This document shows, piece after piece, positions 6,338 to 41,090 of a stretch of DNA of 41,090 nt. The DNA comes from a virus. Location: positions 1 through 41,090 of the IMG/VR virus record IMGVR_UViG_3300023110_000073; one strand, given 5' to 3'. Position numbers and translations under genes: made by a program. The notes under the pieces were generated by a model that saw nothing but the letters and a program-made list of their open reading frames with translations, did not search any database and was not told where the DNA came from. How positions within the stretch are numbered: the first letter of the stretch is position 1; each line of letters starts with the position of its first letter.

Positions 6338-6647
6338 AGAAGCCGGTCCCCTGTGCCCTGATCTTGTCCTGCAAGACTTTTCGCGCGTTCGTTGCGCAGT
6401 CCTCCAACGTCTTGCCGCTGGCCTGCACATGCACCGTGGTGTTGTCGATCCGCAGGTGGCAGTTGGCCACCCACTCATCGTCCAAGTTGCGCGAGAAATC
6501 GCAGATGCCGTTTCGCACAGAAACCGCGAAGGTCAGGTCGTACAGGGCTTGCAGGTCACTCACGCTCGGCATTCCGTTCGCACGACGATGCCGGTCGAAA
6601 TTATCTGCCGCTTCGGCGTAAGTGCTTTCCAGTGGATGCAGCGTCAT
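6330..6647 (-). CDS. Hypothetical protein (105 aa)
   Basis: A soluble 105-residue protein. The N-terminal half looks helical (ESTYAEAADNFDRHRRANG); the C-terminal half looks like two or three strands followed by a helix (HLRIDNTTVHVQASGKTLEDCATNA). ATG 6647 overlaps the rusA stop as ATGA, so it is translated by coupling to the resolvase gene. No domain family is recognised. Confidence 0.6.
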   Translation of the reverse strand: MTLHPLESTYAEAADNFDRHRRANGMPSVSDLQALYDLTFAVSVRNGICDFSRNLDDEWVANCHLRIDNTTVHVQASGKTLEDCATNARKVLQDKIRAQGTGFYD

Positions 6648-7081
6648 TCTGGGTTCACCATTCCGAACTCAACGTAGGTTCCCGGTTTGTCGTTGATCGA
6701 CCACCGCTTTGTGACCCGGACATTGACCATGCGGGCGTCGTCTGGAACACCGCCAGCAGCAACGATCGGGTCAGTCACCATCTTCAGCAGGTTGTCCGCG
6801 TCTGGCTTGATACCCGGGTAGGGCTTGCGCAGCCCTTCCGCTGACAGTTCGCCGTTCTTCTTGAAGTGCCCCTTTGGCCTTGTGAACGACGCCTCCACGC
6901 GAACGGACCAGTAGCAGTCGTCCGGCAGGCGCGGCATCCCTTCCTCGCGCCACGCCAACTCCACGCGCTGCTGTGATTCCACATCTTTTGGCGCGGTGTA
7001 GACGCGGGCGTACTTCCCCCGCGACGCAACCCGCGGTCTGCCCATGCCCCGGATTTCACCGGGTATGAACAGGGTGAACAT
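6644..7081 (-). CDS. rusA: RusA-family Holliday junction resolvase
   Basis: RusA enzymes are dimeric magnesium-dependent nucleases that cut four-way junctions left by recombination or replication. The 145-residue product has the family core KPDADNLLKMVTDP followed by DDARMVNVRVTKRW. Its conserved aspartates are the expected catalytic residues. The N-terminus FTLFIPGEIRGMGRPRV also fits the family. It would resolve junctions produced by the exonuclease/RecT pair upstream, and so prepare DNA for packaging. ATG 7081 has only a weak GAGAG site; a GTG at 7099, overlapping the preceding small gene, is possible and adds six residues. Confidence 0.87.
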   Translation of the reverse strand: MFTLFIPGEIRGMGRPRVASRGKYARVYTAPKDVESQQRVELAWREEGMPRLPDDCYWSVRVEASFTRPKGHFKKNGELSAEGLRKPYPGIKPDADNLLKMVTDPIVAAGGVPDDARMVNVRVTKRWSINDKPGTYVEFGMVNPE

Positions 7082-7091
7082 GCTCTCGTAT

Positions 7092-7199
7092 TCACTCACC
7101 GTCGTACCACATCCAGATTCCAGCCCCGACACACAGGAGGATCGCGCCGACCAGTATCCAGCCCTCAAACCCTGCGGGGTTCAACGGGTTCCAGTTCAT
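7092..7199 (-). CDS. Tiny membrane protein (35 aa)
   Basis: A 35-residue product: MNWNPLNPAGFEG, then one hydrophobic helix (WILVGAILLCVGAGIWMW) and the tail YDGE. It starts in an ATGA overlap with the 77-residue membrane protein, so the two are made together. It sits two genes after a secreted Rpf-like lysozyme, so a holin or lysis-helper role is possible. The main lysis cassette is elsewhere (23055-24122), and function is not established. Confidence 0.6.
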   Translation of the reverse strand: MNWNPLNPAGFEGWILVGAILLCVGAGIWMWYDGE

Positions 7200-7429
7200 T
7201 TCTCGTTCTCCAGTCGGATGAGGTCATCCGGGTCCTCATGCTCTGGATCAGCAAACCAGTCGCGTTCCATCCGATTCAGATGTTCACGCTCCTTATTCCG
7301 GTGCCAATCCCTTTCCGCCTTCCGGCGCACGCGGTGCGCACGATCGTCGTGCATCTCCGCAATAGCGACGATGACTATTCCGATCACCGCGATCACCGCG
7401 AGCGCCGTTAGGAAGGTGTTGCTGATCAC
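7196..7429 (-). CDS. Single-pass membrane protein with charged cytoplasmic tail (77 aa)
   Basis: The N-terminal helix (about residues 5-24, FLTALAVIAVIGIVIVAIAE) would cross the membrane. The remaining 50 residues are highly charged and probably coiled-coil (HRVRRKAERDWHRNKEREHL). The GTG start at 7429 is chosen because TAGGAGC, overlapping the stop of the lysozyme gene, gives it a good ribosome site. It could be a holin-like or scaffold-type membrane factor linked to the Rpf-like enzyme. No family is recognised. Confidence 0.62.
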   Translation of the reverse strand: MISNTFLTALAVIAVIGIVIVAIAEMHDDRAHRVRRKAERDWHRNKEREHLNRMERDWFADPEHEDPDDLIRLENEK

Positions 7430-7436
7430 TTTGCTC

Positions 7437-7964
7437 CTAGTAGCAAGCCCATGCGCTAAAGCCGTACCGTCGGGCAAGTGCTACTGCCCCCATAAGGCCC
7501 TCGGCGGGGGTGGCCCCGGGGAATGAGTACCCCGTTGCCGAGTTGATGTAGCGCCCGTTTCCGTTCCAGATTCCGAACGCCGACGAGTACCGGGGGAGAT
7601 CAAGGCCCCAGCGCAACTTTGCCCACTTGCTCTTCGCAGGCGGGTGCCCCTTCGTCGGTGGCTTCTTGTACCCGGGGGAGCGCGTGCCCATTTCGCACAC
7701 GCCGATGCGGTACATCACCGCCTGCTCCGTGGGCGACGTGCGCTTCAGCGCCTCGTTCCACGTCGGCTTTTTCGGGTAAGCAGTGTGAGTCCTCTTCCAC
7801 TGCTTCATGCAAGCGGCCCGGGTAACAGTTGACCGGGTGCGCTCGGAGTCGATCTTCACCGGATGCTTCGCGCATGGCTTCGACTTGTGGTCTGCCATCG
7901 CAACCTGACTGGTTCCCGCGAGGGGGATCAGAAGTGCGGTGGCCGCGATTACGAACTTCCTCAT
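7437..7964 (-). CDS. Secreted Rpf-like / transglycosylase-type muralytic enzyme
   Basis: A clear Sec signal peptide opens the 175-residue protein: MRK, a hydrophobic core, and a likely cleavage after AMA near residue 24. The mature C-terminal domain has GVCEMGTRS, with the catalytic-type Glu beside a Cys. A YSSAFGIWNG stretch and a final AEGLMGAVALARRYGFSAWAC follow. That order and the paired cysteines match the lysozyme-like fold of resuscitation-promoting factors, which cleave peptidoglycan outside the membrane. ATG 7964 has AAGAGG upstream. It sits in the early/replication operon, followed by two small membrane proteins, away from the late lysis genes. Fold assignment is probable; the biological role is open. 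Confidence 0.75.
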   Translation of the reverse strand: MRKFVIAATALLIPLAGTSQVAMADHKSKPCAKHPVKIDSERTRSTVTRAACMKQWKRTHTAYPKKPTWNEALKRTSPTEQAVMYRIGVCEMGTRSPGYKKPPTKGHPPAKSKWAKLRWGLDLPRYSSAFGIWNGNGRYINSATGYSFPGATPAEGLMGAVALARRYGFSAWACY

Positions 7965-7984: not shown

Positions 7985-8320
7985 TTACAGGTCGTCCACG
8001 TCACGGCTCACGGTTGCGACACCGTCGATGTCGTATTCCGTGCCTGCGACGTGAGTAATGATGGCAATCAACCTCTCTCTGACCTCGTCTTCCGAAGTCT
8101 CAACTGGTTGATTGACGTACTCCGCAGCGAAAGTCGCGGCGGGGATTCGGTAGCGCGTTCCGATCTTGACGAACGGAACAAGGCCACCCTTGATCCACCT
8201 ACGAACGGTTGCCTGAGAGACGTTCATGTAGGTGGCAACTTGCGGAACAGAAAGCATCTGGCGATTGACGATTCGGAGATCGTCACTCGTCAGTTCGTCA
8301 CTCGTCGTCGGATTCGTCAT
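7985..8320 (-). CDS. Excisionase-family helix-turn-helix protein (111 aa)
   Basis: The central segment MLSVPQVATYMNVSQATVRRWIKGGLVPFVKIGTRYRIP (written here as a description of residues about 22-60) is a MerR/excisionase-type winged helix: helix, turn, recognition helix TVRRWI, then the Gly-Thr-Arg-Tyr wing. The C-terminal 50 residues are acidic and unassigned. The gene overlaps the upstream helix-turn-helix gene by 23 nt. It may bend DNA for the tyrosine recombinase at 35814-36578 or regulate early transcription. The DNA-binding call is firm; the role is inference. Confidence 0.78.
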   Translation of the reverse strand: MTNPTTSDELTSDDLRIVNRQMLSVPQVATYMNVSQATVRRWIKGGLVPFVKIGTRYRIPAATFAAEYVNQPVETSEDEVRERLIAIITHVAGTEYDIDGVATVSRDVDDL

Positions 8321-8498
8321 TCGGAGTGAGGATCTTCTGCATGTCGGCTTCGGTCAGATACCAGCGCTGACCAATCTTGACGGCAGGGATGTTCTTCAAG
8401 CGGACGTTGCGCCACATCCACTGGTACGCGGCCCGACCCTCTAGGTCGGGCCGCATAGTCTCTGCTGCTTCCTTGATTGTTATGAGCCTTTCGCTCAC
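8298..8498 (-). CDS. Small excisionase-family helix-turn-helix protein (66 aa)
   Basis: Sixty-six residues form one winged-helix unit of the same kind as the next gene: LITIKEAAETM, then AYQWMWRNVRLKNIP and the wing VKIGQRWYL. An acidic tail (NDESDDE) ends it. The GTG start at 8498 follows GAGGGGGAG, a strong ribosome site made by the end of the recT-like gene. The two proteins look like diverged tandem paralogues, sharing the V-K-I-G-x-R-[WY] wing. Either could be an excisionase or a small repressor. Confidence 0.75.
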   Translation of the reverse strand: MSERLITIKEAAETMRPDLEGRAAYQWMWRNVRLKNIPAVKIGQRWYLTEADMQKILTPNDESDDE

Positions 8499-9394
8499 TA
8501 CTCCCCCTCAGCGTTTTCCATCATTTCCAAAGACTCAGGCCACGACTCCACCACGGTGATGAGCATGTCGTAGGCGTCGGTCCTGATCTCCTTCGTGGAC
8601 TCCACCTTGCACAGCCACTTGACGATCCGCTTCAGCGTGGCCTGCGTGTCCTCCGGTATTGCTTCCCGGGCGGTTGCCCAAAGCCGACGGATCTGCGCCT
8701 GCGTGATGAACTCAACCGCAACGGCCTCCGCCTCCACGGGCGGTTCCTCCACCACAACAACTTCATCGGTGTCGTTCCCTTCTTCGACGATCTCGCCCAG
8801 CACCGGCTCGTCAGTTTCCGGCTCGCTGACGCGCACAGTCTCGGTCGGGATCTCCGGCTGGTCCCCGAGGTCTGCACGCGGGTGCGCGTAGTCCTCGGGG
8901 TCGGGGTCACCGACGGGAAGGTTCATGGCGACCTCCGGGCAGTACAGGCGGACCGCACGAGACGTAGCGCGGGCAGCCAGCATCTCTGCCGGAAAGTTTG
9001 TCCATGCGGGGTTTTTTGTCAGCCCCGCCTTCTTTGCGTCGTCGATCGTGAAGGCCACGGGCGGCATCGCCTCCCATTCCCCGGTGCGCTTCGACTTGCG
9101 CCAGATGGTGACCGTGGCCTGCTCGCGGCTGGTTTCGATCTCGTAGTCCACGTTCGGGCTGTTGTTGATCAGCCCGCGCAGCGCTTCGGGCTTGACCATC
9201 GGTCGGCCCTTTACTTCTTCGATGTGCCACAGACCGGTTTCCGGCGCGAGACCAAGTGACTGCGCAGCAGCCAACTTGACCCCGGCCGAACCGGCGGAGG
9301 ACGCCCAGCCTGCGTCCGCCGCCGCCTTAGCGATGCGAGCGATCTCTGACATTGGGAGTCGCTTCTCGGGAAGGTTGTCGCTTTCGTCGCTCAT
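8498..9394 (-). CDS. RecT-like single-strand annealing protein with acidic linker and C-terminal domain
   Basis: RecT-type proteins anneal single strands generated by a partner 5'-3' exonuclease. Residues about 12-185 have the RecT-family look: repeated helices, GLAPETGLWHIEEVKGRPMVKPEALRGLI (residue ~50-80), then WTNFPAEMLAARATSRAVRLYCPEV, which resembles the family's conserved A-x-R motif. A Glu/Asp/Pro-rich linker (about 190-240) joins a helical C-terminal domain (about 240-298, ITQAQIRRLWATAREAIPED) that may bind partners. It starts in a TAATG overlap with the ParB-like gene and is two genes after the exonuclease, the usual Red-type arrangement with an insertion. Confidence 0.75.
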   Translation of the reverse strand: MSDESDNLPEKRLPMSEIARIAKAAADAGWASSAGSAGVKLAAAQSLGLAPETGLWHIEEVKGRPMVKPEALRGLINNSPNVDYEIETSREQATVTIWRKSKRTGEWEAMPPVAFTIDDAKKAGLTKNPAWTNFPAEMLAARATSRAVRLYCPEVAMNLPVGDPDPEDYAHPRADLGDQPEIPTETVRVSEPETDEPVLGEIVEEGNDTDEVVVVEEPPVEAEAVAVEFITQAQIRRLWATAREAIPEDTQATLKRIVKWLCKVESTKEIRTDAYDMLITVVESWPESLEMMENAEGE

Positions 9395-10272
9395 TAGAAC
9401 GGCCTCACTACGAGGTTGCCGTTCATGTCCAGAATGCCCGGGAACTCCTCGCGTGGCTTGTAATGGACGCGCTGCACCGGGACGTTCAGGATCCACTTGT
9501 TCCACGTCTTGATGATCAGCGCCGTCTCCACGGTGGACGTGACGGGGTCGCTGCTCCCATGCCGGTGCGTGTGACGGTTGCGCATCCACTTCACCAGTGC
9601 GATGCGCGGGTCGCCCGCTGTCATTCCGATGCCGGAATTGATCGGCTCCCAGAACTCGTCCAGTAACCCGGACGTGTTCATTGCGTACTTCCGCACCATC
9701 CAGTTGAAGGAGTTGACGGCCGTCGTTCGCAGGTAGCCCTGCCGACCCATCCACCCGTTGAACAGGGCCGGGTTTTCCTCCATGTACCTCGCTGCCTCGG
9801 CGTGGGTCGGTCGGTTCGCGGTGTCGCGCAGGCCCTCCTTCTCCCATCGCCAGACGAAGGACAGCACCGCTGCCCGGGCGTTGTGGTCCTTGTGCCCCAT
9901 CAGCATGAGCATGTCGCCAATGGTCCGCTTTGTTCCGGTGTCGATGTCCTTGAATGCGTTGGGCGTCACGCCGGTGACCAACACCGTGGTGAACGGAACT
10001 CCCGCCCGGACGCACGCCATAAGGCGGTGCTGCCCGTTCAGCAGGTTTCCGTTCGCGTCGATGGTGATCGACTCGCCCGTGAGCGACCAGTTCCCGGCCC
10101 TCATGTCTCGGGAATACCGCTCAACCACGGTCATACGCGGCTTGCGGTTGTTCTGGTTGTTGTTCAGATAGCGCTGTGCGTCCGCGGGCGTGATCTCCAC
10201 GACCTCGGCGTTTTCCTGCTGCTGCTTCCTCATGCTGATCATCTTCTTGAACTCCAGTGTCCTAGTGGTCAT
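9394..10272 (-). CDS. ParB/sulfiredoxin-like domain protein (292 aa)
   Basis: The recognisable core is NGNLLNGQHRLMACVRAG (about residues 80-97), the G-Q-H-R motif of ParB N-terminal-like domains, preceded by ITPADAQRYLNNN and ERYSRDMRAGNW. The C-terminal 180 residues are helical and Trp-rich with no family I know. In phages such proteins are often labelled ParB-like nucleases, but activity is rarely shown. It sits between the exonuclease and the RecT-like protein and is coupled to both (ATGA and TAATG overlaps). That suggests a recombination or DNA-end role rather than segregation. ATG 10272 has GGAAAGG upstream. Confidence 0.68.
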   Translation of the reverse strand: MTTRTLEFKKMISMRKQQQENAEVVEITPADAQRYLNNNQNNRKPRMTVVERYSRDMRAGNWSLTGESITIDANGNLLNGQHRLMACVRAGVPFTTVLVTGVTPNAFKDIDTGTKRTIGDMLMLMGHKDHNARAAVLSFVWRWEKEGLRDTANRPTHAEAARYMEENPALFNGWMGRQGYLRTTAVNSFNWMVRKYAMNTSGLLDEFWEPINSGIGMTAGDPRIALVKWMRNRHTHRHGSSDPVTSTVETALIIKTWNKWILNVPVQRVHYKPREEFPGILDMNGNLVVRPF

Positions 10273-11126
10273 TCCGCAGCCTTTCCTGACTGCTCTGTTC
10301 CGAAGACTTCCTTCTCCAGCCCGTATGCCCATCGCCCGCCAACTTCGCGGACGTGCATGAACATGCGCTGTACCTCCGGCCCGCTGTCGACCTCAATGAG
10401 CCGCCAGCCGTCCGGACTCACGTCAAAGACCCACGACGTTTCGATCCCGTACGACTCCGTCGGAACCGGCTCGTCGTTGTCCATAACGAACTCGCTTGCC
10501 CGGTACGCAGCCAACTGAAGCGCTGCCTCCGGGTACGCGCGTCCGGTCTTGATGTCGAACACGCCGACCTTGCCGCCAATGTTCACGATGGCGTCAAGCG
10601 TCCCGGCGTATCCGGCTGATGCGTTCCAGCAGGTTGCTTCCTGCACGATGAACTCGGGGTTCACGTCCTCCACGAAGGAGAGGAACTGCATGACGTACGG
10701 GCGAACCTCGTCGTCAAGGCTCTGCATCAGCGTGGCAACGTCGCCAACGTGGCGGGCGTCACCCAACTGCTCAATGGCGTTATGCACCGCCGTCCCGACC
10801 TCGCCAGCCATGTCGCGCTTGCGGTCGGGGTAGCGCTTCAGCAGGTCGATGGCTTCCTCGCGCTGACCCTTCTCGTGCAGTAGCGCCAGTACGTCGAAGT
10901 TGTCGTACGCCTGCTCGGCTGTGTACTTCTTAGCCCAGTTGACCAGCGCGGGCTTCGGAATGCCGCGGCTGATCAACGTCGTCACTGAGTACAGCCGGAC
11001 CGGGTCGCTCAACTGCACAACCCCGTCGTCCGACCACTCGCTTTGCGTGACCTCGTACCAGCGGACACCACGGTTTGTGGTGACCTGCTTGATCTCTGTC
11101 ACGACTCTGCTTCCTGCCTGTCCCAT
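10269..11126 (-). CDS. PD-(D/E)XK exonuclease, RecB/Cas4-like (RecE partner type)
   Basis: A 285-residue nuclease of the RecB/Cas4 class. Motifs in order are GTAVHNAIE (His of the family's first motif), GYAGTLDAIV (metal-binding Asp), FDIKTGRAYPEA (D-x-K catalytic pair) and QLAAYRASE (Q-x3-Y). It probably degrades one strand of phage DNA ends to feed the RecT-like annealing protein two genes on. It is the first gene of the early operon. ATG 11126 carries AGGAA 6 nt upstream and lies 28 nt downstream of a near-consensus promoter. Confidence 0.87.
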   Translation of the reverse strand: MGQAGSRVVTEIKQVTTNRGVRWYEVTQSEWSDDGVVQLSDPVRLYSVTTLISRGIPKPALVNWAKKYTAEQAYDNFDVLALLHEKGQREEAIDLLKRYPDRKRDMAGEVGTAVHNAIEQLGDARHVGDVATLMQSLDDEVRPYVMQFLSFVEDVNPEFIVQEATCWNASAGYAGTLDAIVNIGGKVGVFDIKTGRAYPEAALQLAAYRASEFVMDNDEPVPTESYGIETSWVFDVSPDGWRLIEVDSGPEVQRMFMHVREVGGRWAYGLEKEVFGTEQSGKAAE

Positions 11127-11211: not shown

Positions 11212-12387
11212 CTACTGGCGGCGAACCCCGATGTGGATGTGGTCGTGATGGTTCCCGCCGGTGTTGGTCCTCCACAAGACCTGCACCCGGTAGTTGCCGA
11301 TCTTGCCGTTGTAGGTGCCGCCGGTAGCGCCCCAGTTGTCGGGTCCGCCCAGTGCCTTGACGATGCGCGACGCAGCGGCGTCTGTGCGGCCGTCTCCGGG
11401 CCTTCCCGGCAGGTCGATGGCGTAAGAGGTAGTAGACCCTTCCCAGTGGTCGCTGGTGTTGTTAGACGCCGTAATACGGCGGCTGCGCTTCTGGCTGCTG
11501 GGCGTGATGCCGCTAAGGCGCTGCAACTGAAGCGCGATCGGCAGCGACCCGCCCCAGTTCCCGCCTTCTCCACCGCGAACCACCTTGCCGCTGTCCACGG
11601 CCCCCTCGGGTAGCGCGGTCACGTTGGTGAAGGTTTCCTGCGGTGTAGTCGCAGTCGACGCCATCTGGCCCATGTTCTTGGTCAGCGTGCCGTACAAGGC
11701 GCTGAAGTCCGGCTCCTTCGGCTTCTCCTTGTTCTGCTCTGCCTGCTCATCGGCGTAGGACATGAACGTGCGCTTTGGCGACGTTGTTCCGCCCAAAGCC
11801 CAGTTCTCTGACTCCTTCAGCCATTTCTGCATCGCCGCAGGGTCAGGCAGGCTAATCGTGGCTATTCCTTTTGGCGCCCCGCTTGCAGCGTCCGTTGCTG
11901 CTGCGCTCAGGTCTGACGACGCAAGCCCGGCCCCGCCCGGCCCCAGCCCGCGCACTGCTGATGACGGGTTGCCGCCGAGTTCGCGGAAGAACTGGCTTAC
12001 TGCCGACGGCCAGCCGCCGTTAGTTCCGTTCGGGTCGTTGCTGGCACCGACCGGCGCCCAGATGCGGGCGATCTCGGGGATGGTTTTGGCGTTCTTGTAG
12101 TACGCCCGCATTCCGGACGTATCGGCGTTGGCGCCCAGCGCCTTGCCTGCGATCTGGATTGCGTTGCGCGGATTGCCGTACGAAGTCGCAGATCCGTAAC
12201 CGAACGGGCCGCTGGCCCCGACGCCGGTCTTCCCAAACTGCGTTTCGATTCCCGAGATAGCAGGGAGGATGCGGTAGTCCAGCCCGTACTGGTCGGCCAC
12301 GTTGACGAAATCCTGCGCGTACGAGGCGAGGGGTGACCCCTTCCTGCGGAAGAAGTCGGCCAGTTGTGTTGTGCGTTGGTCAGCCAC
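11212..12387 (-). CDS. Virion-associated two-domain lysin (lysozyme-like + LAS metallopeptidase)
   Basis: Residues about 10-130 resemble a lysozyme/transglycosylase-like domain (ADQYGLDYRILPAISGIETQFGK, with the likely catalytic Glu in GIETQ). A long Ala/Gly/Ser- and Glu-rich linker follows (about 130-280). The C-terminal 95 residues have SDHWEGSTTSYAIDLP and HHDHIHIG, the S-x-H...D and H-x-H zinc ligands of D-Ala-D-Ala carboxypeptidase-type LAS enzymes. It would cut both glycan and peptide bonds. It directly follows the three probable ejection proteins, so it is likelier to act at DNA entry than at lysis. The GTG start at 12387 abuts the stop of the 1689-residue gene. Confidence 0.75.
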   Translation of the reverse strand: MADQRTTQLADFFRRKGSPLASYAQDFVNVADQYGLDYRILPAISGIETQFGKTGVGASGPFGYGSATSYGNPRNAIQIAGKALGANADTSGMRAYYKNAKTIPEIARIWAPVGASNDPNGTNGGWPSAVSQFFRELGGNPSSAVRGLGPGGAGLASSDLSAAATDAASGAPKGIATISLPDPAAMQKWLKESENWALGGTTSPKRTFMSYADEQAEQNKEKPKEPDFSALYGTLTKNMGQMASTATTPQETFTNVTALPEGAVDSGKVVRGGEGGNWGGSLPIALQLQRLSGITPSSQKRSRRITASNNTSDHWEGSTTSYAIDLPGRPGDGRTDAAASRIVKALGGPDNWGATGGTYNGKIGNYRVQVLWRTNTGGNHHDHIHIGVRRQ

Positions 12388-19910: not shown

Positions 19911-22112
19911 TCATACTTCTGGCCTGCGGGAACGGACAGACACCCCGATTTCGTTCAGGGCAATCAGTCGGTTGTCCGCGTGGACCCCGGTCACCGTGAC
20001 ACGAACACGGTTGTCCCGGCCGGAAAGCCCTGCATGGAAACGCTTTTGATGAGTGAAGCCATCAGCAGCCGAGGTCATCTTGCCGACGCTTTGCTCGATC
20101 TTCCCAACCTGATCTATTCCGCTTGACGCTGTCACGACCACTTCAACCGTTGTTCCGGTCTTCTCGTTGTCGTCCAGCGTCGTGTCCAGTCGGACCTCGG
20201 TCAGTCGACTGTCCCGAGACGGCGTCTTGTCGCCATCAACAGTCGACCCCGTCTCCACGCGCATGTACGGAATAACGGAGTTGCCGTCAGCGGGGTCGCC
20301 GCTCATGTCCAGCGCAGTCTTGATGTTGACCGGACGCCGATCCACATTGCCGCCAGTGAGGGTCGCCAGCGTTGCTTCAATTCCGGCGTTAGTAACGACG
20401 TTCCAGAAATAGCGTGCCCCCATGTTGGTCATCTCTGCCCATGCCCCGGTGGCAAGGTTGTACGTCCACACCCACTCGTCCTTAGCGCCAGTTGCGCCAA
20501 CGGAACAAGACACGATCAGGTGGTCGTTAGAGATGCCGAGGGCAATGACGTTGTCAGTGTCTTTGTCGGTGCGGTACGCCTTGATCCGGCGCTTCCATTC
20601 CGTGTTGACCTTCTTGCTGGTGATGTTGGTGATCTTCCCCTTGCGGTACGAGTAGATCCCGTTTGGCCCGGCCCAATACGCGCCGTAGCCGTCGACGCTG
20701 ATCGCCCCGCGAACGTCAAGGCATCCAGTCCCAGAAGACAGGAGGTTCTGGGTGTAGTTCGGAAACGCGCCGTAGATGCCGTGAACAGTGTTGTTCTTCA
20801 GCACCAGCAGCGGTGAGTCAGTGGAAAGAATGGCGATGATCTCGTCCGTGTTCTCGCCGGGCACATCGACGTAGCGCATCCGTCCAGAGCGGCGGTTGAT
20901 GAACGGATCAGTGCCGTAGTTCCAGTTCGGCGCACCGAGTTCCGGGGGGAGAGCAAGGTTCCAGTTTGACTCCGTGTACCAGACCCGCGACGGATTAGTT
21001 ACCGACCCGGCACCCCAGAGCGACGAGTTGTGAGCGGCAATGTCTCGGAATCCGAGACGGCGGGTGATGGAGTAGTTGGCGTTGGTTACGCCCGAAGGGA
21101 ATAACCCAGCAGACGTAACGGCCTTCTGGACTAGCGGGGCCTGAACCCACTCCAGCCCGGCCACCTTCTCAACGTGAATGCAGTCGTGCATCCACGGGTA
21201 CGGCGCGTCCGTCTGCGTCATCAGCAGTTTGTCCGGGTGTTCACCAACGGAATAGGTAATCGCACCCGTGCTCTTTGCGATGCTTACTTTCCCTTCCGAC
21301 GTGATCTCTTGCGCAGCCCACGCAACGCCGAACAGCGAAGTCCAGTGAATAACGGGGGTGCTGGTCTGCGCGTTGGCTACAAACCCAGACTCCAGCGGGT
21401 AACGGTTAGCGCTCGTCGCGTCTTTCCGGGTAATCCGCCATGACGGGTGAGCGCATCCGTTAGTCCGAGGCATCCAGTATTGGCCTCCAACAAACGTCTG
21501 CCCGTTGTTCAAGAGGTTGGCGTACGAACCACCATCATCAAAGACGTTTCCAAGCCCATTGGTCGGGTCAGTGAACTCAAACGCGGAAGACTGGTTCTGG
21601 TAGCCGCCGCAGTAACGCAGCACCGGGTAGTAGCCATCGGTAGCGCAGAACAAAATCTCGCCGTTGTAGAACACGCGAGGGATGTAGCGGGGAGTGCGCT
21701 TTGTGCTGATGTCAGGCGTCGTTACCGACATGCCGCTGACCTTTGTCTTCGGCAGCGGCACGTTCTTCCCTTGAAGGAATTCCTTGGTCGGGGCAGCAAT
21801 CTTGCGCCACACACTCTGATTGTCGCTCTCGTCAAGGCTCCACAGCGAAGTCTTCTGGGTTGCCACGCTTCCGATGCGCTGTGTCGATGGGAAGTAGTGC
21901 TCGGAATACGAGTCCATGTCGTGATCGGAATCAGAGTCGGTCACTGACGCTGCGACGTGGTACTGCCAGCCACGACGCTGAGTGACCACGCCGTTGTGCG
22001 TAATTCCGTTTATCAGAACACGGACCTGATTCGGCTCAATGCTCCACGGCTGGTCGTCAGTGTTGATCCCACCAGTGCCCGGCATGATGAATGAGAGTTT
22101 CGTGGTCGGCAC
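19911..22112 (-). CDS. Probable tail nozzle / tail tubular protein B-like (733 aa)
   Basis: A beta-rich protein of the length expected for a podovirus tail nozzle. It starts GTGGINTDDQPWSIEPNQV and has repeated short strand motifs such as VFYNGEILFCATDG, SLWGAGSV and GAYWAGPNGIYSYRKG. These look like blades of a propeller-like or stacked beta domain. Nozzle proteins close the short tail and contact the adaptor. Position among tail fibres and ejection proteins supports this. An alternative is a large receptor-binding propeller protein. The GTG start follows the previous stop immediately. Confidence 0.55.
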   Translation of the reverse strand: MPTTKLSFIMPGTGGINTDDQPWSIEPNQVRVLINGITHNGVVTQRRGWQYHVAASVTDSDSDHDMDSYSEHYFPSTQRIGSVATQKTSLWSLDESDNQSVWRKIAAPTKEFLQGKNVPLPKTKVSGMSVTTPDISTKRTPRYIPRVFYNGEILFCATDGYYPVLRYCGGYQNQSSAFEFTDPTNGLGNVFDDGGSYANLLNNGQTFVGGQYWMPRTNGCAHPSWRITRKDATSANRYPLESGFVANAQTSTPVIHWTSLFGVAWAAQEITSEGKVSIAKSTGAITYSVGEHPDKLLMTQTDAPYPWMHDCIHVEKVAGLEWVQAPLVQKAVTSAGLFPSGVTNANYSITRRLGFRDIAAHNSSLWGAGSVTNPSRVWYTESNWNLALPPELGAPNWNYGTDPFINRRSGRMRYVDVPGENTDEIIAILSTDSPLLVLKNNTVHGIYGAFPNYTQNLLSSGTGCLDVRGAISVDGYGAYWAGPNGIYSYRKGKITNITSKKVNTEWKRRIKAYRTDKDTDNVIALGISNDHLIVSCSVGATGAKDEWVWTYNLATGAWAEMTNMGARYFWNVVTNAGIEATLATLTGGNVDRRPVNIKTALDMSGDPADGNSVIPYMRVETGSTVDGDKTPSRDSRLTEVRLDTTLDDNEKTGTTVEVVVTASSGIDQVGKIEQSVGKMTSAADGFTHQKRFHAGLSGRDNRVRVTVTGVHADNRLIALNEIGVSVRSRRPEV

Positions 22113-23054: not shown

Positions 23055-23939
23055 TCAGGTGTATTTCACGTCGCCGCTGGACGACGGGCCGGAGCCTCCG
23101 CCAGTGACGTTCTTCTTGTACGAGTACGGGCGCATGGTGCGTCCGGTGTTCGCCTCGCGCTTCTTCATCGTGGAGTCACGCCCGGCCTTGTTGTCCAGCC
23201 ACGGGCCGAAGTCCCACTGCTCGCCGTAGGTCCCCTGCTCGCCTTCCTCGAAGGCGAACTTGCCGTTGACCTTCACCTTGCGGAGCCAGCGACCGTTGTT
23301 CTGCTCCTTGTTGTACGCCTCGCGCTTGGCGTACTGCTTGTCGCGGCTGTCCTTTGACGACCACGGACCCATCAGAGTCGGCTGAAGCGCGACATCCTGA
23401 AAGCAAAACGCCGTCTGAGTGACCGAGCCAGTGGCAGTACCGAGGTCGCTGGGCGTGATGTAAGACCACTGCTCCGCGGTGCTGCGGGTTGAGTAACGGA
23501 CCGAATCGGACTCGTTACCACCAATACACTCAAACCGACCGTTCTTGTCGGGCGCAGTGATGATAAGAAAAACGTGCTTCCCGCGCTTGATGCCGAGACT
23601 TCCGGGCTTAGGCTTACTTGTAAGCCAACCCTTTGCCTTCGCGTTGTCATAGGTGATTGATGTAGCGCCGGAGCAGATGCCACCGTTCTTGGTGTGCTGA
23701 TAACTTTTATAACCGGCCTCATTGGCCCACGCGATTATCGCATTGTTACACCACGGGGTATTTGACACTCCGTAGCCACCCGCGATGTTGCTTCGGTTCA
23801 CGATCTCCGCGCCCTTGCTGCTATAGCCGAAGGCGTCGTTACCTGTACCCGAGCCGATGTTGTCCCGCTGGGGGCCGCGCTCGGTGTGGTTTATGTATTT
23901 CCGTGCAGTGGCGATCATCTTGTCGGCGTTGCTAGCCAA
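23055..23939 (-). CDS. CHAP-type peptidoglycan amidase/endopeptidase (endolysin)
   Basis: The N-terminal ~170 residues have the Cys-His layout of CHAP domains. The nucleophile lies in NTPWCNNAIIAWANEAG, the general-base His in KRGKHVFLIITAP, and the third polar residue in ECIGGNESDSVRY. It would hydrolyse peptide cross-links of the host wall at lysis. The C-terminal 110 residues (basic, with RWLRKVKVNGKFAFEEG) are probably wall-binding. It has a strong GGAAAGGA ribosome site inside the end of the holin-like gene, the usual holin-endolysin order. It has no signal peptide, so it depends on a holin. Confidence 0.75.
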   Translation of the reverse strand: MASNADKMIATARKYINHTERGPQRDNIGSGTGNDAFGYSSKGAEIVNRSNIAGGYGVSNTPWCNNAIIAWANEAGYKSYQHTKNGGICSGATSITYDNAKAKGWLTSKPKPGSLGIKRGKHVFLIITAPDKNGRFECIGGNESDSVRYSTRSTAEQWSYITPSDLGTATGSVTQTAFCFQDVALQPTLMGPWSSKDSRDKQYAKREAYNKEQNNGRWLRKVKVNGKFAFEEGEQGTYGEQWDFGPWLDNKAGRDSTMKKREANTGRTMRPYSYKKNVTGGGSGPSSSGDVKYT

Positions 23940-23942
23940 TGT

Positions 23943-24122
23943 TCAGTCCTTTCCTGATTGGTTACGTCCGAGGGTGTAGCCCGCGACTGCACCCATAAGT
24001 GCAAAAGAACCCGTAATAGCGTCCTCGCTGTAGGGCCTTCCGCCAAAAAATCCGAATACGACCATTAGGGCGAGAAGCCCGAAGATGCCGACGACAGTCA
24101 TTTGCTCCGGCGACCAGTTCAT
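23943..24122 (-). CDS. Putative holin (59 aa, two membrane helices)
   Basis: Two hydrophobic segments, about residues 9-27 (TVVGIFGLLALMVVFGFFG) and 36-52 (ITGSFALMGAVAGYTLG), joined by a short charged loop and followed by a polar tail (RNQSGKD). This is typical of small class II-like holins, which time lysis by opening the membrane. It starts in an ATGA overlap with the fibre gene and is followed within 3 nt by the CHAP endolysin. Confidence 0.75.
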   Translation of the reverse strand: MNWSPEQMTVVGIFGLLALMVVFGFFGGRPYSEDAITGSFALMGAVAGYTLGRNQSGKD

Positions 24123-31661: not shown

Positions 31662-31913
31662 TTAGGTGTTACGGGCCACGACGCGCCTGATCACCGCGGT
31701 GTGTTCATCCTGCGGCCAGTCGCGTGAGTACTGAAGACCACGGATTTCCCCTGCAAGCGCGGCCCTTTCTGTGTCGGTGCAGTCGACCTGAATCATTCTC
31801 TCAACCAGCGCCGCAATGCGCAGGTCGATTTCCTCCACCGTCACTGTCCAGCCGCGAGACTTCATCAGTGTTTCTAGCGCTGATGCCCGGTCAAAGTCTT
31901 CGGGTTCGCTCAT
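31662..31913 (-). CDS. Hypothetical protein between portal and scaffold (83 aa)
   Basis: Small and mostly helical (RASALETLMKSRGWTVTVEEI, RIAALVERMIQVDCTDTERAAL), similar in character to short head-assembly helpers. It is coupled to the portal gene by an ATGA overlap. The 120-nt spacer to the scaffold gene below holds no strong hairpin. No family is recognised. Confidence 0.55.
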   Translation of the reverse strand: MSEPEDFDRASALETLMKSRGWTVTVEEIDLRIAALVERMIQVDCTDTERAALAGEIRGLQYSRDWPQDEHTAVIRRVVARNT

Positions 31914-33730
31914 CCGTAACCAACCGGCAGGCCACCGGCCTGCTCGTCAGGCGTGACTGGCATCTGCTCTGGCGGGAACATCTCCGGCGGAAGCCCCATG
32001 TCCATGTCCGGAGCGGGCGGTGCGCCCATCTCTGGACCCGGCGGCTGGGGCTGCTCGGGGTTCATAATCCGCTCGGGCATGTAGCCGTGCGCCTCAATCA
32101 CAAGGCGCATCACCTGATTCCAGTCGATCGTCGGCTGGACTGGCGGCGGCATCATCAGTAGCGCGTTGACCATTGCCATGACTCGCTTCGCCTGTTCCTG
32201 CCCGGCGGGCGGTGCCATCGCTCCGGCGTCGACGGTGATCTCATAACGAAGGTCAGGGTCGTTAGCGTCATCGCTTACGCCCACGATTCCGTTGTCGTCG
32301 TAGATCCCCTCAGCGCTGTCCGAGATCGTCATCCCCGGCTCTGGGGTGACGTGCTTTGTTCCGTTCCCCAGCGCCCGGTCAAGCCAGTCAAAGTTCTCCG
32401 CTACTCGGCGCATACCGAGTTCGACCATGCGCATGAGCATCTGGAAGCGCTTGTTGCTCTCACCGAGGATCGCCATTGTTCCGGTCGCGGTCTGGGCGTC
32501 AAGCCCTGTTCCGCTCTGGACACCGGCCGAGAAGTCTGAGATGCCAGCAACCAGTTGCGCCTCGTTGCGAAGGATCTCGTAGTTCTCTGCGAAGTCGCGG
32601 CTTGATCCGCTCGGCGGGAAGCGGACGACTGCATCGCTCGGCGGACCATCAGTTCCGAACAGGCCGCCCGGAGTTGACCACGCCTGCGCCACTTCCTCTG
32701 GCCGGACCTTCCGGCTGTCGAACCCGATCGGGGCGAACAGGTTGCCGCTCGCTTGGTCAAGGTTCTGGTTGCGTAGCAGCGTTGCCTCACGCTGGTGGTT
32801 CTCCAGCAGTTCTCCATAGCCGATGCTGTACGGCAGGTTCATGTTCGGCGTGTTCTGGAACACAGAGAACGGGCGGAACGGACGACCGTCCGGGTCACGG
32901 AACGGGCACTCGTCCTCGTTCACGACGCGCAGGATTTCCAGCGCGTCCTCGGGCCCGCCGACAACCACACGGCTGCCGTCTGAGTACCAGCATTCGATGA
33001 CCTGAACCACACCACGGTCCTGATCGGAATAACGGATGTCGCCCAGCCCTGCTGCCTCGCGGCGTTCGATGTAGGTCGGGTCCTTTGTGGACTTCAGCCC
33101 GACGTTCCCGATGAGCCGGTCGATCGCCTCCCTGCTGTAAAGACTCTTCCCGTCGTTCTTCCGTCCGCGCAGCGTTTCCAGTTGGCGCTTCGTGTGCCAC
33201 GTCCGGTGGAACAAGACCTCCGCCTGATGCCAGCGGTCTGCCTCGCTGCTGATCCACCAGTCCCACCACGACACCGACATGATCGACGGCGCGTTGCGGA
33301 TCGGATCCCACGGGGTTTTCGCTATTCCGTCACCGAACAGCAGCATCGACTTCAGGATGTGCAGCATCTCCTCGTCGGAGTGCGCCGCCCTGAGATCTGA
33401 CTGGATGCGCAGTTGCTTTGCCTCTGCGTACGGAACAGCAGCAGGGTTGCGAGCAGTCACCGTGATGGTCGGCGGCTGGATGCCAATCCTCGGCAGCGCC
33501 GTCTCCACCACCCATGCGATGATCGGAACAGTGACCTTGCTCCAGCCGAACGGACCAGCAGGGTCGAAGCCCTCCTTACCCCCGCCCGGAACGTCCTCTC
33601 GGTACATGGAGTAGTTCTGAAGCGCCCGCACCTTCTGGTCTTCGACGTTCTGGCGGGTGTCTCTGGCGGCAAGAAAATCCTCGCGCACCATCTCCTTCAG
33701 GTCTTCCCGCTTCATACCCTTGATCGACAT
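31910..33730 (-). CDS. Portal protein
   Basis: The 606-residue protein has the order of podovirus/SU10-like portals. The N-terminal helical wing is DFLAARDTRQNVEDQKVRALQ. A stem/core region contains ILKSMLLFGDGIAKTPWDP and SWWDWWISSEADRWHQ, followed by LPYSIGYGELLENHQREATLLRN. A long clip/crown helix region then ends in a Pro/Met-rich tail (MNPEQPQPPGPEMGAPP). Portals form the dodecameric DNA gate and dock terminase. It lies two genes below the terminase, as expected. Its start has no clear ribosome site and probably depends on coupling to the upstream stop 3 nt away. Confidence 0.83.
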   Translation of the reverse strand: MSIKGMKREDLKEMVREDFLAARDTRQNVEDQKVRALQNYSMYREDVPGGGKEGFDPAGPFGWSKVTVPIIAWVVETALPRIGIQPPTITVTARNPAAVPYAEAKQLRIQSDLRAAHSDEEMLHILKSMLLFGDGIAKTPWDPIRNAPSIMSVSWWDWWISSEADRWHQAEVLFHRTWHTKRQLETLRGRKNDGKSLYSREAIDRLIGNVGLKSTKDPTYIERREAAGLGDIRYSDQDRGVVQVIECWYSDGSRVVVGGPEDALEILRVVNEDECPFRDPDGRPFRPFSVFQNTPNMNLPYSIGYGELLENHQREATLLRNQNLDQASGNLFAPIGFDSRKVRPEEVAQAWSTPGGLFGTDGPPSDAVVRFPPSGSSRDFAENYEILRNEAQLVAGISDFSAGVQSGTGLDAQTATGTMAILGESNKRFQMLMRMVELGMRRVAENFDWLDRALGNGTKHVTPEPGMTISDSAEGIYDDNGIVGVSDDANDPDLRYEITVDAGAMAPPAGQEQAKRVMAMVNALLMMPPPVQPTIDWNQVMRLVIEAHGYMPERIMNPEQPQPPGPEMGAPPAPDMDMGLPPEMFPPEQMPVTPDEQAGGLPVGYG

Positions 33731-35813: not shown

Positions 35814-36578
35814 CTAGCCGACCATCGCACGCCCGCCGTACCAATCGTCGTCCCCGGTGACAGTGACCAGCGCAGACTCGGGACTGAGATCTTTTGACTC
35901 AGGCATTGCGCCAACTGCCTTTGTCCGGTCGCTCCACTCGCGCCTGTTCAGACGCTCAGTGACTTCGCCCGGGGCAATCGTAATGAGGTAGCGACTGGTC
36001 ACTGACAGGTCGGCGTGCCCCAGTGCCCGCTGGATGAAGGGCATGGGAACTCCCTCCTTGACCAACTCCACCGCGTATGTGTGGCGCAGTGAGTGGGGCG
36101 TGCAGCGCTTTGTTATTCCGGCGCGTTTGGCCGCACGTTCGATCATCATTTGCGCACCCCGGGCAGACAGCGGCTCGCCGTCCATCCGGGGGAACACTGG
36201 ACCGGACTTCGGGAATCCCATTTGCTCCCGTGTTTCCAGCCAGTACCGGAGGACTAGTGCGGTGTCGGCGTCGATGCCGACCGCACGTTGCTTACCGCCC
36301 TTGCCTTTGTTGACCATGATCGTGGGCTGACTGCCCAGATCCAGATCGTGCGGAACTAGCGCCAGCGCCTCGCTCAGACGCAGACCGGCTCGCCAAAGAA
36401 CTACGACGAACGCTTTGTTCCGCAGCGCAAACTGGCGCGGCCTTGTTCGGTAGCCGACTTGATTCAGCAGAGCCGCGACCTCGTCGTCGGTCAGGCTGAC
36501 CGGAGGTCGCAGGACTCCACGGAACTGGGTGCCGGGAACAAGGTTGTCAACGCGGCTGTGGTTTACGACCGGGTTCAC
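35814..36578 (-). CDS. Tyrosine recombinase (integrase/Xer-like), short form
   Basis: All catalytic positions are visible: Arg in AGLRLSEAL, Lys in GKGGKQR, His-x-x-Arg in PHSLRHTYA, His in ALGHADL and the nucleophile Tyr in TSRYL. The N-terminus has only about 30 residues before the core-binding or catalytic region, and no room for an arm-type DNA-binding domain. At 254 residues it is shorter than most phage integrases. It may integrate at simple sites or resolve dimers of a circular genome. The GTG start overlaps the upstream stop (GTGA) and has AGGAGGAAGGA just before it. Confidence 0.87.
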   Translation of the reverse strand: MNPVVNHSRVDNLVPGTQFRGVLRPPVSLTDDEVAALLNQVGYRTRPRQFALRNKAFVVVLWRAGLRLSEALALVPHDLDLGSQPTIMVNKGKGGKQRAVGIDADTALVLRYWLETREQMGFPKSGPVFPRMDGEPLSARGAQMMIERAAKRAGITKRCTPHSLRHTYAVELVKEGVPMPFIQRALGHADLSVTSRYLITIAPGEVTERLNRREWSDRTKAVGAMPESKDLSPESALVTVTGDDDWYGGRAMVG

Positions 36579-39837: not shown

Positions 39838-41090
39838 TTACGCGGCGTCGTTGTCGGTGGTGGTGGTAGCGCCGGGCGTGAGTTCCTGCGGGGCGCCGCC
39901 GGACATGACGTGGCGCAGTGCCGTCGCCAGTGTTCCGGGCAGGTTCGGCAGGTTAGGCACCGATGCCCAGTACGGGTGGTAGTCCGGAGTCGCGCCACTG
40001 ATCCCAATCCCAATCGTGTGGATCCCTGCCCCATTCATAGCGGCGGCCTTCAATCCGCACGACCCCCGGTCATTCGGGACTCCGTCCGTGAGGACGAGAG
40101 CGATCTTTCCCGGGTGGTCGTGATCCATAAGCGACCAGTACGCAACGTCCAGCGCCCGGGATTCGTCGGTGCTGCCGCTGCTGTACATGATCGCGGAGGA
40201 CCAGTCGACGAGGTCGACAGGCCGACCGGGCGGGTAGCACGCGCCGATCTTGCTGTCATAGGTACAGCCGCCAACGTGGACACCTCGCATACGCTTCGCA
40301 GCGTCCAGCAGGGAGGTAACGATGCCGACGCATTCGCGCCGCTCCCTGTAGCCCATGCTGCCGGACGTGTCGACGGCGAGGAATACCGCCCAGTCGGTGA
40401 TGCCGTCCGGGGCCACCGGCCGCCGGAAGATCCGTGCGTCGGCGTGAGTCACGATCCGCCCGGCCCGGCGGCCGTCCAGTCGGCCGCGTCGGGTGCGCCG
40501 CTGGACACCGCCGGTGGCGTTGTCATCCAGCACCCGGCGCAACGCCCGGACGTTCCGCCCGGTCGTCTCGGCCACTGCCTGTCGGACGGTCCGCGGCGTC
40601 TCACCCTCCGGCGTTCTCCGGTCGGGTAGGCCGACGCCCTCCCATGCGGACGGCGGCGCCGTGGACGCCGTGGTGGCGTCCCCGATCCACCTGCCGACCG
40701 GACCCTCCGCCCACGCGGCCCGCTCGGCCTTCGTCCTGTGCCAGTACTTGCCCTTGCCAGCGATCATGCGATCCCGGTCCTCTGCCTTTAGGGCGTCTTC
40801 GACGGCGTCCTGTCGCCACTGTTCGTGGACCCATCCCTCCCCGTCGTCGTCCTGCGGGTCGTTCCATTCTTCGTCCTCATCCCCTTCGCCCTTGTTGTTC
40901 CGGTCGTTGTTCCCTTCGTCGTCGTCTTCGGCGTCGTCGTCGTCGTCGTCGGCCGGGCCGCCGCCGCCTCCCTCGTCGCCGCCGTCGCCGTCGTCGTCGC
41001 TTTCCGAATCGACCGGCGGGCCGGGCGTGTCGCCGTCGCCGTCGCCGTCGCCGTCGTCGTCGTCGTCGTCGATGTCGCCGTCACTGTCGA
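39838..41090 (-). CDS. VWA-domain protein, CobT-like, 5' end cut by window edge
   Basis: The frame is open to the right edge. The visible N-terminal part (about 100 residues) is an extreme Asp/Gly/Glu stretch, typical of CobT-type proteins. A linker follows, then the VWA domain (C-terminal ~190 residues) with a full MIDAS: DTSGSMG, the Thr loop in GSTDESRAL, and TDGVPND. VWA proteins of this class bind a metal ion and partner with a MoxR/CobS AAA+ ATPase to insert metal into, or remodel, a substrate. The ATPase partner is at 1-1037. An internal ATG at 40767 would exclude the acidic part and is unlikely to be the true start. Confidence 0.85.
   Translation of the reverse strand, partial: DSDGDIDDDDDDGDGDGDGDTPGPPVDSESDDDGDGGDEGGGGGPADDDDDDAEDDDEGNNDRNNKGEGDEDEEWNDPQDDDGEGWVHEQWRQDAVEDALKAEDRDRMIAGKGKYWHRTKAERAAWAEGPVGRWIGDATTASTAPPSAWEGVGLPDRRTPEGETPRTVRQAVAETTGRNVRALRRVLDDNATGGVQRRTRRGRLDGRRAGRIVTHADARIFRRPVAPDGITDWAVFLAVDTSGSMGYRERRECVGIVTSLLDAAKRMRGVHVGGCTYDSKIGACYPPGRPVDLVDWSSAIMYSSGSTDESRALDVAYWSLMDHDHPGKIALVLTDGVPNDRGSCGLKAAAMNGAGIHTIGIGISGATPDYHPYWASVPNLPNLPGTLATALRHVMSGGAPQELTPGATTTTDNDAA

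Follow-up and report, generated by a model that had tools for sequence, protein, structure and literature searches.

A putatively exported Rpf-type enzyme encoded in the recombination operon of a probably temperate phage

Resuscitation-promoting factors (Rpf) are bacterial enzymes that cut the sugar chains of the cell wall. In the viral record IMGVR_UViG_3300023110_000073, we have analyzed a stretch of 41,090 nucleotides (hereafter, the window) in which a gene for an Rpf-like protein with an export signal lies among recombination genes, in a phage that also has putative genes for a holin, a main endolysin and a virion lysin. The question raised by this locus is why such a phage would export one more wall enzyme. 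A preliminary description proposed that it may remodel the host wall early, wake or keep growing a dormant host, or block superinfection, and that two small membrane proteins encoded beside it could act with it.

The enzyme gene and its operon

All three reading frames of the preliminary description are found where it placed them, each with a plausible start (Table 1). The enzyme gene starts with an ATG at 7964, preceded by a GAGG Shine-Dalgarno sequence. The N-terminus of its product is predicted to be a Sec signal peptide, as expected of a secreted accessory endolysin, with the usual n-h-c layout: MRK, the hydrophobic run FVIAATALLIPLAG and a putative cleavage site between AMA and D. The mature product would have about 150 aa and a net charge of +20. 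A chance reading frame was considered and ruled out by eight homologues, whose aligned parts are 41 to 53% identical to the window protein, and by dN/dS values of 0.04 to 0.33 (pairs with measurable dS), which indicate that the family is under purifying selection.

Table 1. Features of the window considered in this analysis, with the evidence for each (KD-19, 19-residue hydropathy value).
Feature	Position	Strand	Evidence
RusA-like Holliday junction resolvase, next operon gene	6644..7108	-	PF05866 E 9.8e-16, phrog_140 E 6.4e-23
35-aa single-span membrane peptide	7092..7199	-	ATGA overlap with the 77-aa gene; maximum KD-19 1.95
77-aa single-span membrane protein, coupled to the enzyme gene	7196..7429	-	AGGAG over the upstream stop; KD-19 3.03
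Secreted Rpf-type (lysozyme-fold) enzyme, 175 aa	7437..7964	-	ORF, Shine-Dalgarno and export signal; 8 homologues; Rpf profile and fold match
Rpf-type catalytic domain, residues 61-175	7440..7784	-	AlphaFold2 pLDDT 86, pTM 0.82; top PDB matches RpfB/RpfE
Cys174, predicted disulfide partner of Cys90	7443..7445	-	Invariant in the family
Cys90-Glu91, equivalent of the Rpf disulfide Cys and catalytic Glu	7692..7697	-	Invariant in 9/9 family members and in L016/L017/L019
Signal peptide, residues 1-24, cut after AMA	7893..7964	-	Predicted by reading the sequence; KD-19 maximum 1.73
HTH_17/excisionase-like protein, just upstream of the enzyme	7985..8320	-	PF12728 E 6.8e-12, phrog_66 E 1.6e-8
Second excisionase-like HTH protein	8298..8498	-	phrog_1840 E 6.4e-8
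RecT-like annealing protein	8498..9394	-	phrog_561 E 1.9e-14
Recombination exonuclease, first gene of the operon	10269..11126	-	phrog_298 E 5.4e-34
Virion-associated SLT-like protein	11212..12387	-	Weak: SLT_2 E 0.0028, phrog_1259 E 8.6e-4
CHAP-like endolysin (late lysis gene)	23055..23939	-	TIGR02594 E 2.4e-7, below cut-off
59-aa holin-like protein	23943..24122	-	Hydrophobic ORF directly before the endolysin
Tyrosine integrase	35814..36578	-	PF00589 E 7.2e-34

The position amid recombination genes was also confirmed. The operon runs from the exonuclease through a phrog_5931 protein, RecT and the two excisionase-like HTH proteins to the enzyme, the two membrane proteins and RusA, with a primase/helicase farther on. 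No relatives were found in a search for those of the HTH gene immediately upstream of the enzyme. This gene content suggests that the enzyme is made early. A single promoter-like site precedes the operon (11182-11154, minus strand), of a kind no commoner than expected by chance.

The two small proteins, with one hydrophobic segment each, are real and translationally coupled, as previously described: the 77-aa gene starts with a GTG at 7429, its AGGAG overlaps the stop codon of the enzyme gene, and it is overlapped in turn by the 35-aa gene. The suggestion that they act with the enzyme did not hold. In none of 11 homologous loci does a small membrane gene follow the enzyme within 1 kb, so these proteins are not conserved partners, and a search of IMG/VR gave no relatives of the 77-aa protein. 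Obligate partnership was rejected, since none of them is found beside the enzyme in the relatives. The coupling across all three genes would fit a three-component unit devoted to lysis or to the wall, but it reaches RusA, whose gene overlaps the 35-aa gene, and therefore seems a general habit of this operon; with no such gene in the relatives and an apparently isolated 77-aa protein, we regard a unit of this kind as very unlikely.

The enzyme is distinct from the holin-endolysin pair, located about 15 kb away, and from the virion lysin, although both lysin assignments stand up weakly. The endolysin matches TIGR02594, which we take to be a CHAP-type family, and the N-terminus of the virion-associated protein resembles the NlpC/P60-carrying virion protein of the related contig L011. 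The integrase indicates that the phage is probably temperate and, considering the virion genes as well, it looks like a temperate podovirus. Internal-virion-protein-like and head-tail-adaptor/portal-like proteins are encoded at 19911-22112 and 31910-33730, and a VWA-domain protein at 39838-40767 (all on the minus strand); the latter has PHROG matches to a cobalamin biosynthesis protein family, unusual in a phage. A 14-kb contig from another sample (IMGVR_UViG_3300017986_000337) has an identical terminase, showing that this phage recurs.

Relationship to resuscitation-promoting factors

The enzyme has no family match in Pfam, PHROGs, NCBIfam or PADLOC, and at the curated Pfam cut-off PF06737, the Rpf family, was matched neither by it nor anywhere else in the window. 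It was also left unmatched by tblastn against 50,697 phage records, even at E 10 with the relative from L005 as query. Searches of PDB with phmmer returned only designed beta-propellers, discarded as false, repeat-driven matches. The eight relatives were found by pattern and tblastn searches, six in viral contigs and two in MAG contigs. Among the nine members, the invariant residues include P30, C90, E91, G93, W119, G131, W172 and C174, and the motifs CExG, AFGIxNxN and GFSxWxC are invariant across the homologue alignment. Host genomes almost lack the family: in a collection covering 84,980 species it was found in two contigs, of which the first (L013) has phage virion-lysin-like genes and the second (L014) a serine recombinase. 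No further members were found in 394 other genomes from the class of G002. The enzyme belongs to a small, uncatalogued and divergent phage family of Rpf-type enzymes.

Three lines of evidence relate this family to Rpf. In a profile comparison (hhalign) of the mature enzyme family with Rpf domains drawn from PF06737 matches, the probability was 92.7 (P 4.4e-7), against 38.5 for the best of 200 column shuffles and 0.2 for the reversed control. A chain of homology leads to the same family: the HMM of the window family recovers the enzyme of L016 (E 2.8e-10), which, aligned with its relatives from L017 and L019, leads to that of L061 (47% identity), and the latter, a distant relative, matches PF06737 with 33.6 bits for a cut-off of 27, being the only one to clear it. 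The place of L061 in this chain is based on these two matches; its row in a combined alignment was in a wrong frame and has been disregarded. The third line is the predicted structure, modelled at pLDDT 76 in full length and better for the catalytic domain (Table 1). Helix H78-91 of the model, the first of the domain, ends at Cys90-Glu91 and is thus closed by a Cys and the catalytic Glu. For the domain model, the top five Foldseek matches in PDB are RpfB/RpfE (probability 0.75-0.87), followed by lysozymes, MltF and Slt; the TM-scores by target domain with 4emn and 4cge are 0.67-0.71. In BFVD, the top match is annotated as 'Transglycosylase-like' (probability 0.98). The Foldseek E-values for RpfB/RpfE are weak (0.3-0.7), so that the structure would be insufficient by itself for the Rpf claim. 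In RpfC, the catalytic and disulfide set consists of Cys15-Glu16 and Cys76, with a Cys15-Cys76 disulfide (PMC4648573); by position, these correspond to Cys90-Glu91 and Cys174 of the enzyme.

Considering the three lines, the protein is very probably an enzyme of the Rpf/lysozyme superfamily. The secreted enzyme of the preliminary description is thereby supported, and the comparison with Rpf and lysozyme folds that it had called for gave a related fold. The proteins RpfB, RpfC and RpfE of M. tuberculosis (PF06737) are also secreted, and share with the window protein the CE-x-G ending the first catalytic helix, the C-terminal Trp and Cys and the predicted fold. They differ from it in several aspects, since the window protein does not score with Pfam on its own, has SAFGIWNGN in place of GGLQF, a longer insert after CExG and an N-terminal KPC-H-C extension, and carries no accessory domain. 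Along with the weak Foldseek E-values, the replacement of the GGLQF substrate loop by SAFGIW counts against the Rpf-type reading; because of it we name the enzyme 'Rpf-type' rather than 'an Rpf', and its active site may have another specificity. It could even bind the wall in an Rpf-like manner with its catalysis changed or lost, the altered loop admitting a new substrate, and the N-terminal extension (KPC-H..C), absent from the Rpf domains compared, would agree with that. However, all nine members retain Glu91, the Cys before it and the C-terminal Trp-x-Cys, and purifying selection acts on the family, which makes this alternative improbable.

The export of Rpf-type enzymes by phages is not new, since there are examples from phages of Streptomyces, Rhodococcus and Mycobacterium. 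Secreted Rpf proteins that stand alone are encoded by prophi79-1 (gp102, annotated as resuscitation-promoting factor), BRock (gp43), Weasels2 (gp46) and LuckySocke (gp182). As in the window, they combine a signal peptide with an Rpf-type domain, and several are encoded outside the virion genes. That of Weasels2 lies between a methyltransferase and a thymidylate synthase, and those of the Streptomyces phages BRock and LuckySocke are about 1 kb from the endolysin. Nevertheless, they are canonical Rpf (CESGGNW..GGLQF), and tblastn does not link the window family to them.

Gene neighborhoods of the relatives and possible roles before lysis

Three settings were observed for the Rpf-type gene. In the first, an integrase is adjacent to it or close by (L007, L008, L009, L010, L014, L016, L057 and L059; weak for L009 and L010). 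An attP-like tRNA-Gly 3' end (GGGCGACCGGACTCGAACCGGCGACC..CAGCTTGGGAA) is found directly upstream of the gene, between it and the integrase, in L008 (7752), L017/L018 (4851) and L019/L020 (4887), the surrounding DNA being otherwise dissimilar. ARAGORN predicted no complete tRNA close to the Rpf-type genes, so it is the match to the 3' end that suggests a likely attP core. The gene of L016 has the same position as that of L014, beside a serine integrase and before the same small downstream gene. This slot carries two different Rpf-type enzymes, that of L016 being 24% identical to the window protein, and is possibly an exchange site. We have also observed DNA-modification genes nearby, with the enzyme gene followed by a C-5 cytosine methylase and a Mom-family protein (L008:8952-9797, L009:8422-8982).

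In the second setting (L011 and L012), the enzyme gene ends an early-type block, and neither integrase nor resolvase was detected across these records of 45.6 and 46.1 kb, which may be incomplete. In the third, it is part of the lysis cassette of L061, where a CHAP endolysin is followed by a 62-aa holin-like ORF and the abutting secreted Rpf gene. Every relative with enough sequence read has its own lysin elsewhere, being CHAP-type in L009 and L010 (weak), L057 and L061, an amidase in L011 and a peptidoglycan-binding protein in L007.

A position beside attP is typical of genes useful to lysogens, and its occurrence in many relatives keeps in play both superinfection exclusion and a role in growth or resuscitation. 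For the former, the exported enzyme would edit the host wall during lysogeny or early infection and block the adsorption or injection of a second phage. The integrases beside the gene in eight loci, the attP-like 3' ends and the integrase of the window are consistent with this. On the other hand, PADLOC and PHROGs gave no match to known defence or exclusion families, L011 and L012 carry the gene with no detectable integrase or resolvase, and the strictly kept catalytic residues would not be needed for exclusion by binding. We consider this role unlikely.

With a true Rpf function, released muropeptides or an opened wall would either sustain the growth of the infected cell or lysogen or rouse dormant hosts, so that more productive cells become available. 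The fold and active site match Rpf. Host rpf genes are up in the infection by the Rhodococcus phage WC1, which was read as preventing dormancy (PMC10986025). The tape measures of mycobacteriophages carry Rpf-like motifs (motif 1), used for entry, and the motif-3 hydrolase (TM4) aids the infection of stationary cells (PMC1796659). These motifs also represent Rpf-like wall cutting by a phage, but as a virion part for DNA entry, whereas the window enzyme is a separate protein with an export signal. Moreover, resuscitation is not something that sequence can reveal, and a product made inside the infected cell arrives too late to wake that cell. We consider a true Rpf function equally unlikely. Somewhat less so, though still a minority view, is a broader reading in which a branch of the Rpf fold peculiar to phages would work while the infected cell or lysogen is alive, reshaping its wall to control superinfection or host growth and not for lysis, from an integrase/attP-side slot where phages exchange different Rpf-type enzymes.

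A possible accessory wall hydrolase

The reading we tentatively prefer, with a probability of roughly 0.4, is that of an Rpf-fold wall hydrolase, exported by Sec, made early and placed in the wall before lysis, which acts with the late holin and CHAP-like endolysin. The enzyme would be translated along with the recombination operon and exported by the host. The predicted disulfide beside the catalytic Glu91 would hold it in shape, and its strong positive charge could draw it to the wall. As a transglycosylase-like enzyme with a PF06737-related fold, it would cleave the glycan strands of peptidoglycan, these cuts being harmless before lysis; after the late holin collapses the membrane, it would work jointly with the endolysin.

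The best precedent for such a function is Tgl of kayviruses, experimentally shown to be a secreted accessory endolysin under an early promoter, lytic only after the loss of membrane potential (PMC7150955). Both are exported (by prediction, in the window) as a second muralytic enzyme besides the main endolysin, and the early promoter of Tgl has its parallel in the early-type operon of the window. The likeness drawn here is one of role, since Tgl is IsaA/SceD-type in sequence, has a staphylococcal host and is encoded close to lysK. The accessory role is also supported by the cassette of L061, the proximity to the endolysin in BRock and LuckySocke and the separate lysins of the relatives. What counts against it is that about 15 kb separate the gene from the holin and endolysin in the window, and that in eight related loci an integrase or attP is nearby instead. 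With Tgl and the L061 cassette at hand, accessory lysis is at least as likely as the wall remodelling, waking or superinfection block of the preliminary description.

These sequences add an uncatalogued and divergent family to the phage-encoded Rpf-type enzymes, and can be used to test why phages equipped with endolysins and virion lysins would export an Rpf-like enzyme as well. If the enzyme acts before lysis, phage infection would be linked to the control of wall growth and dormancy in the host.
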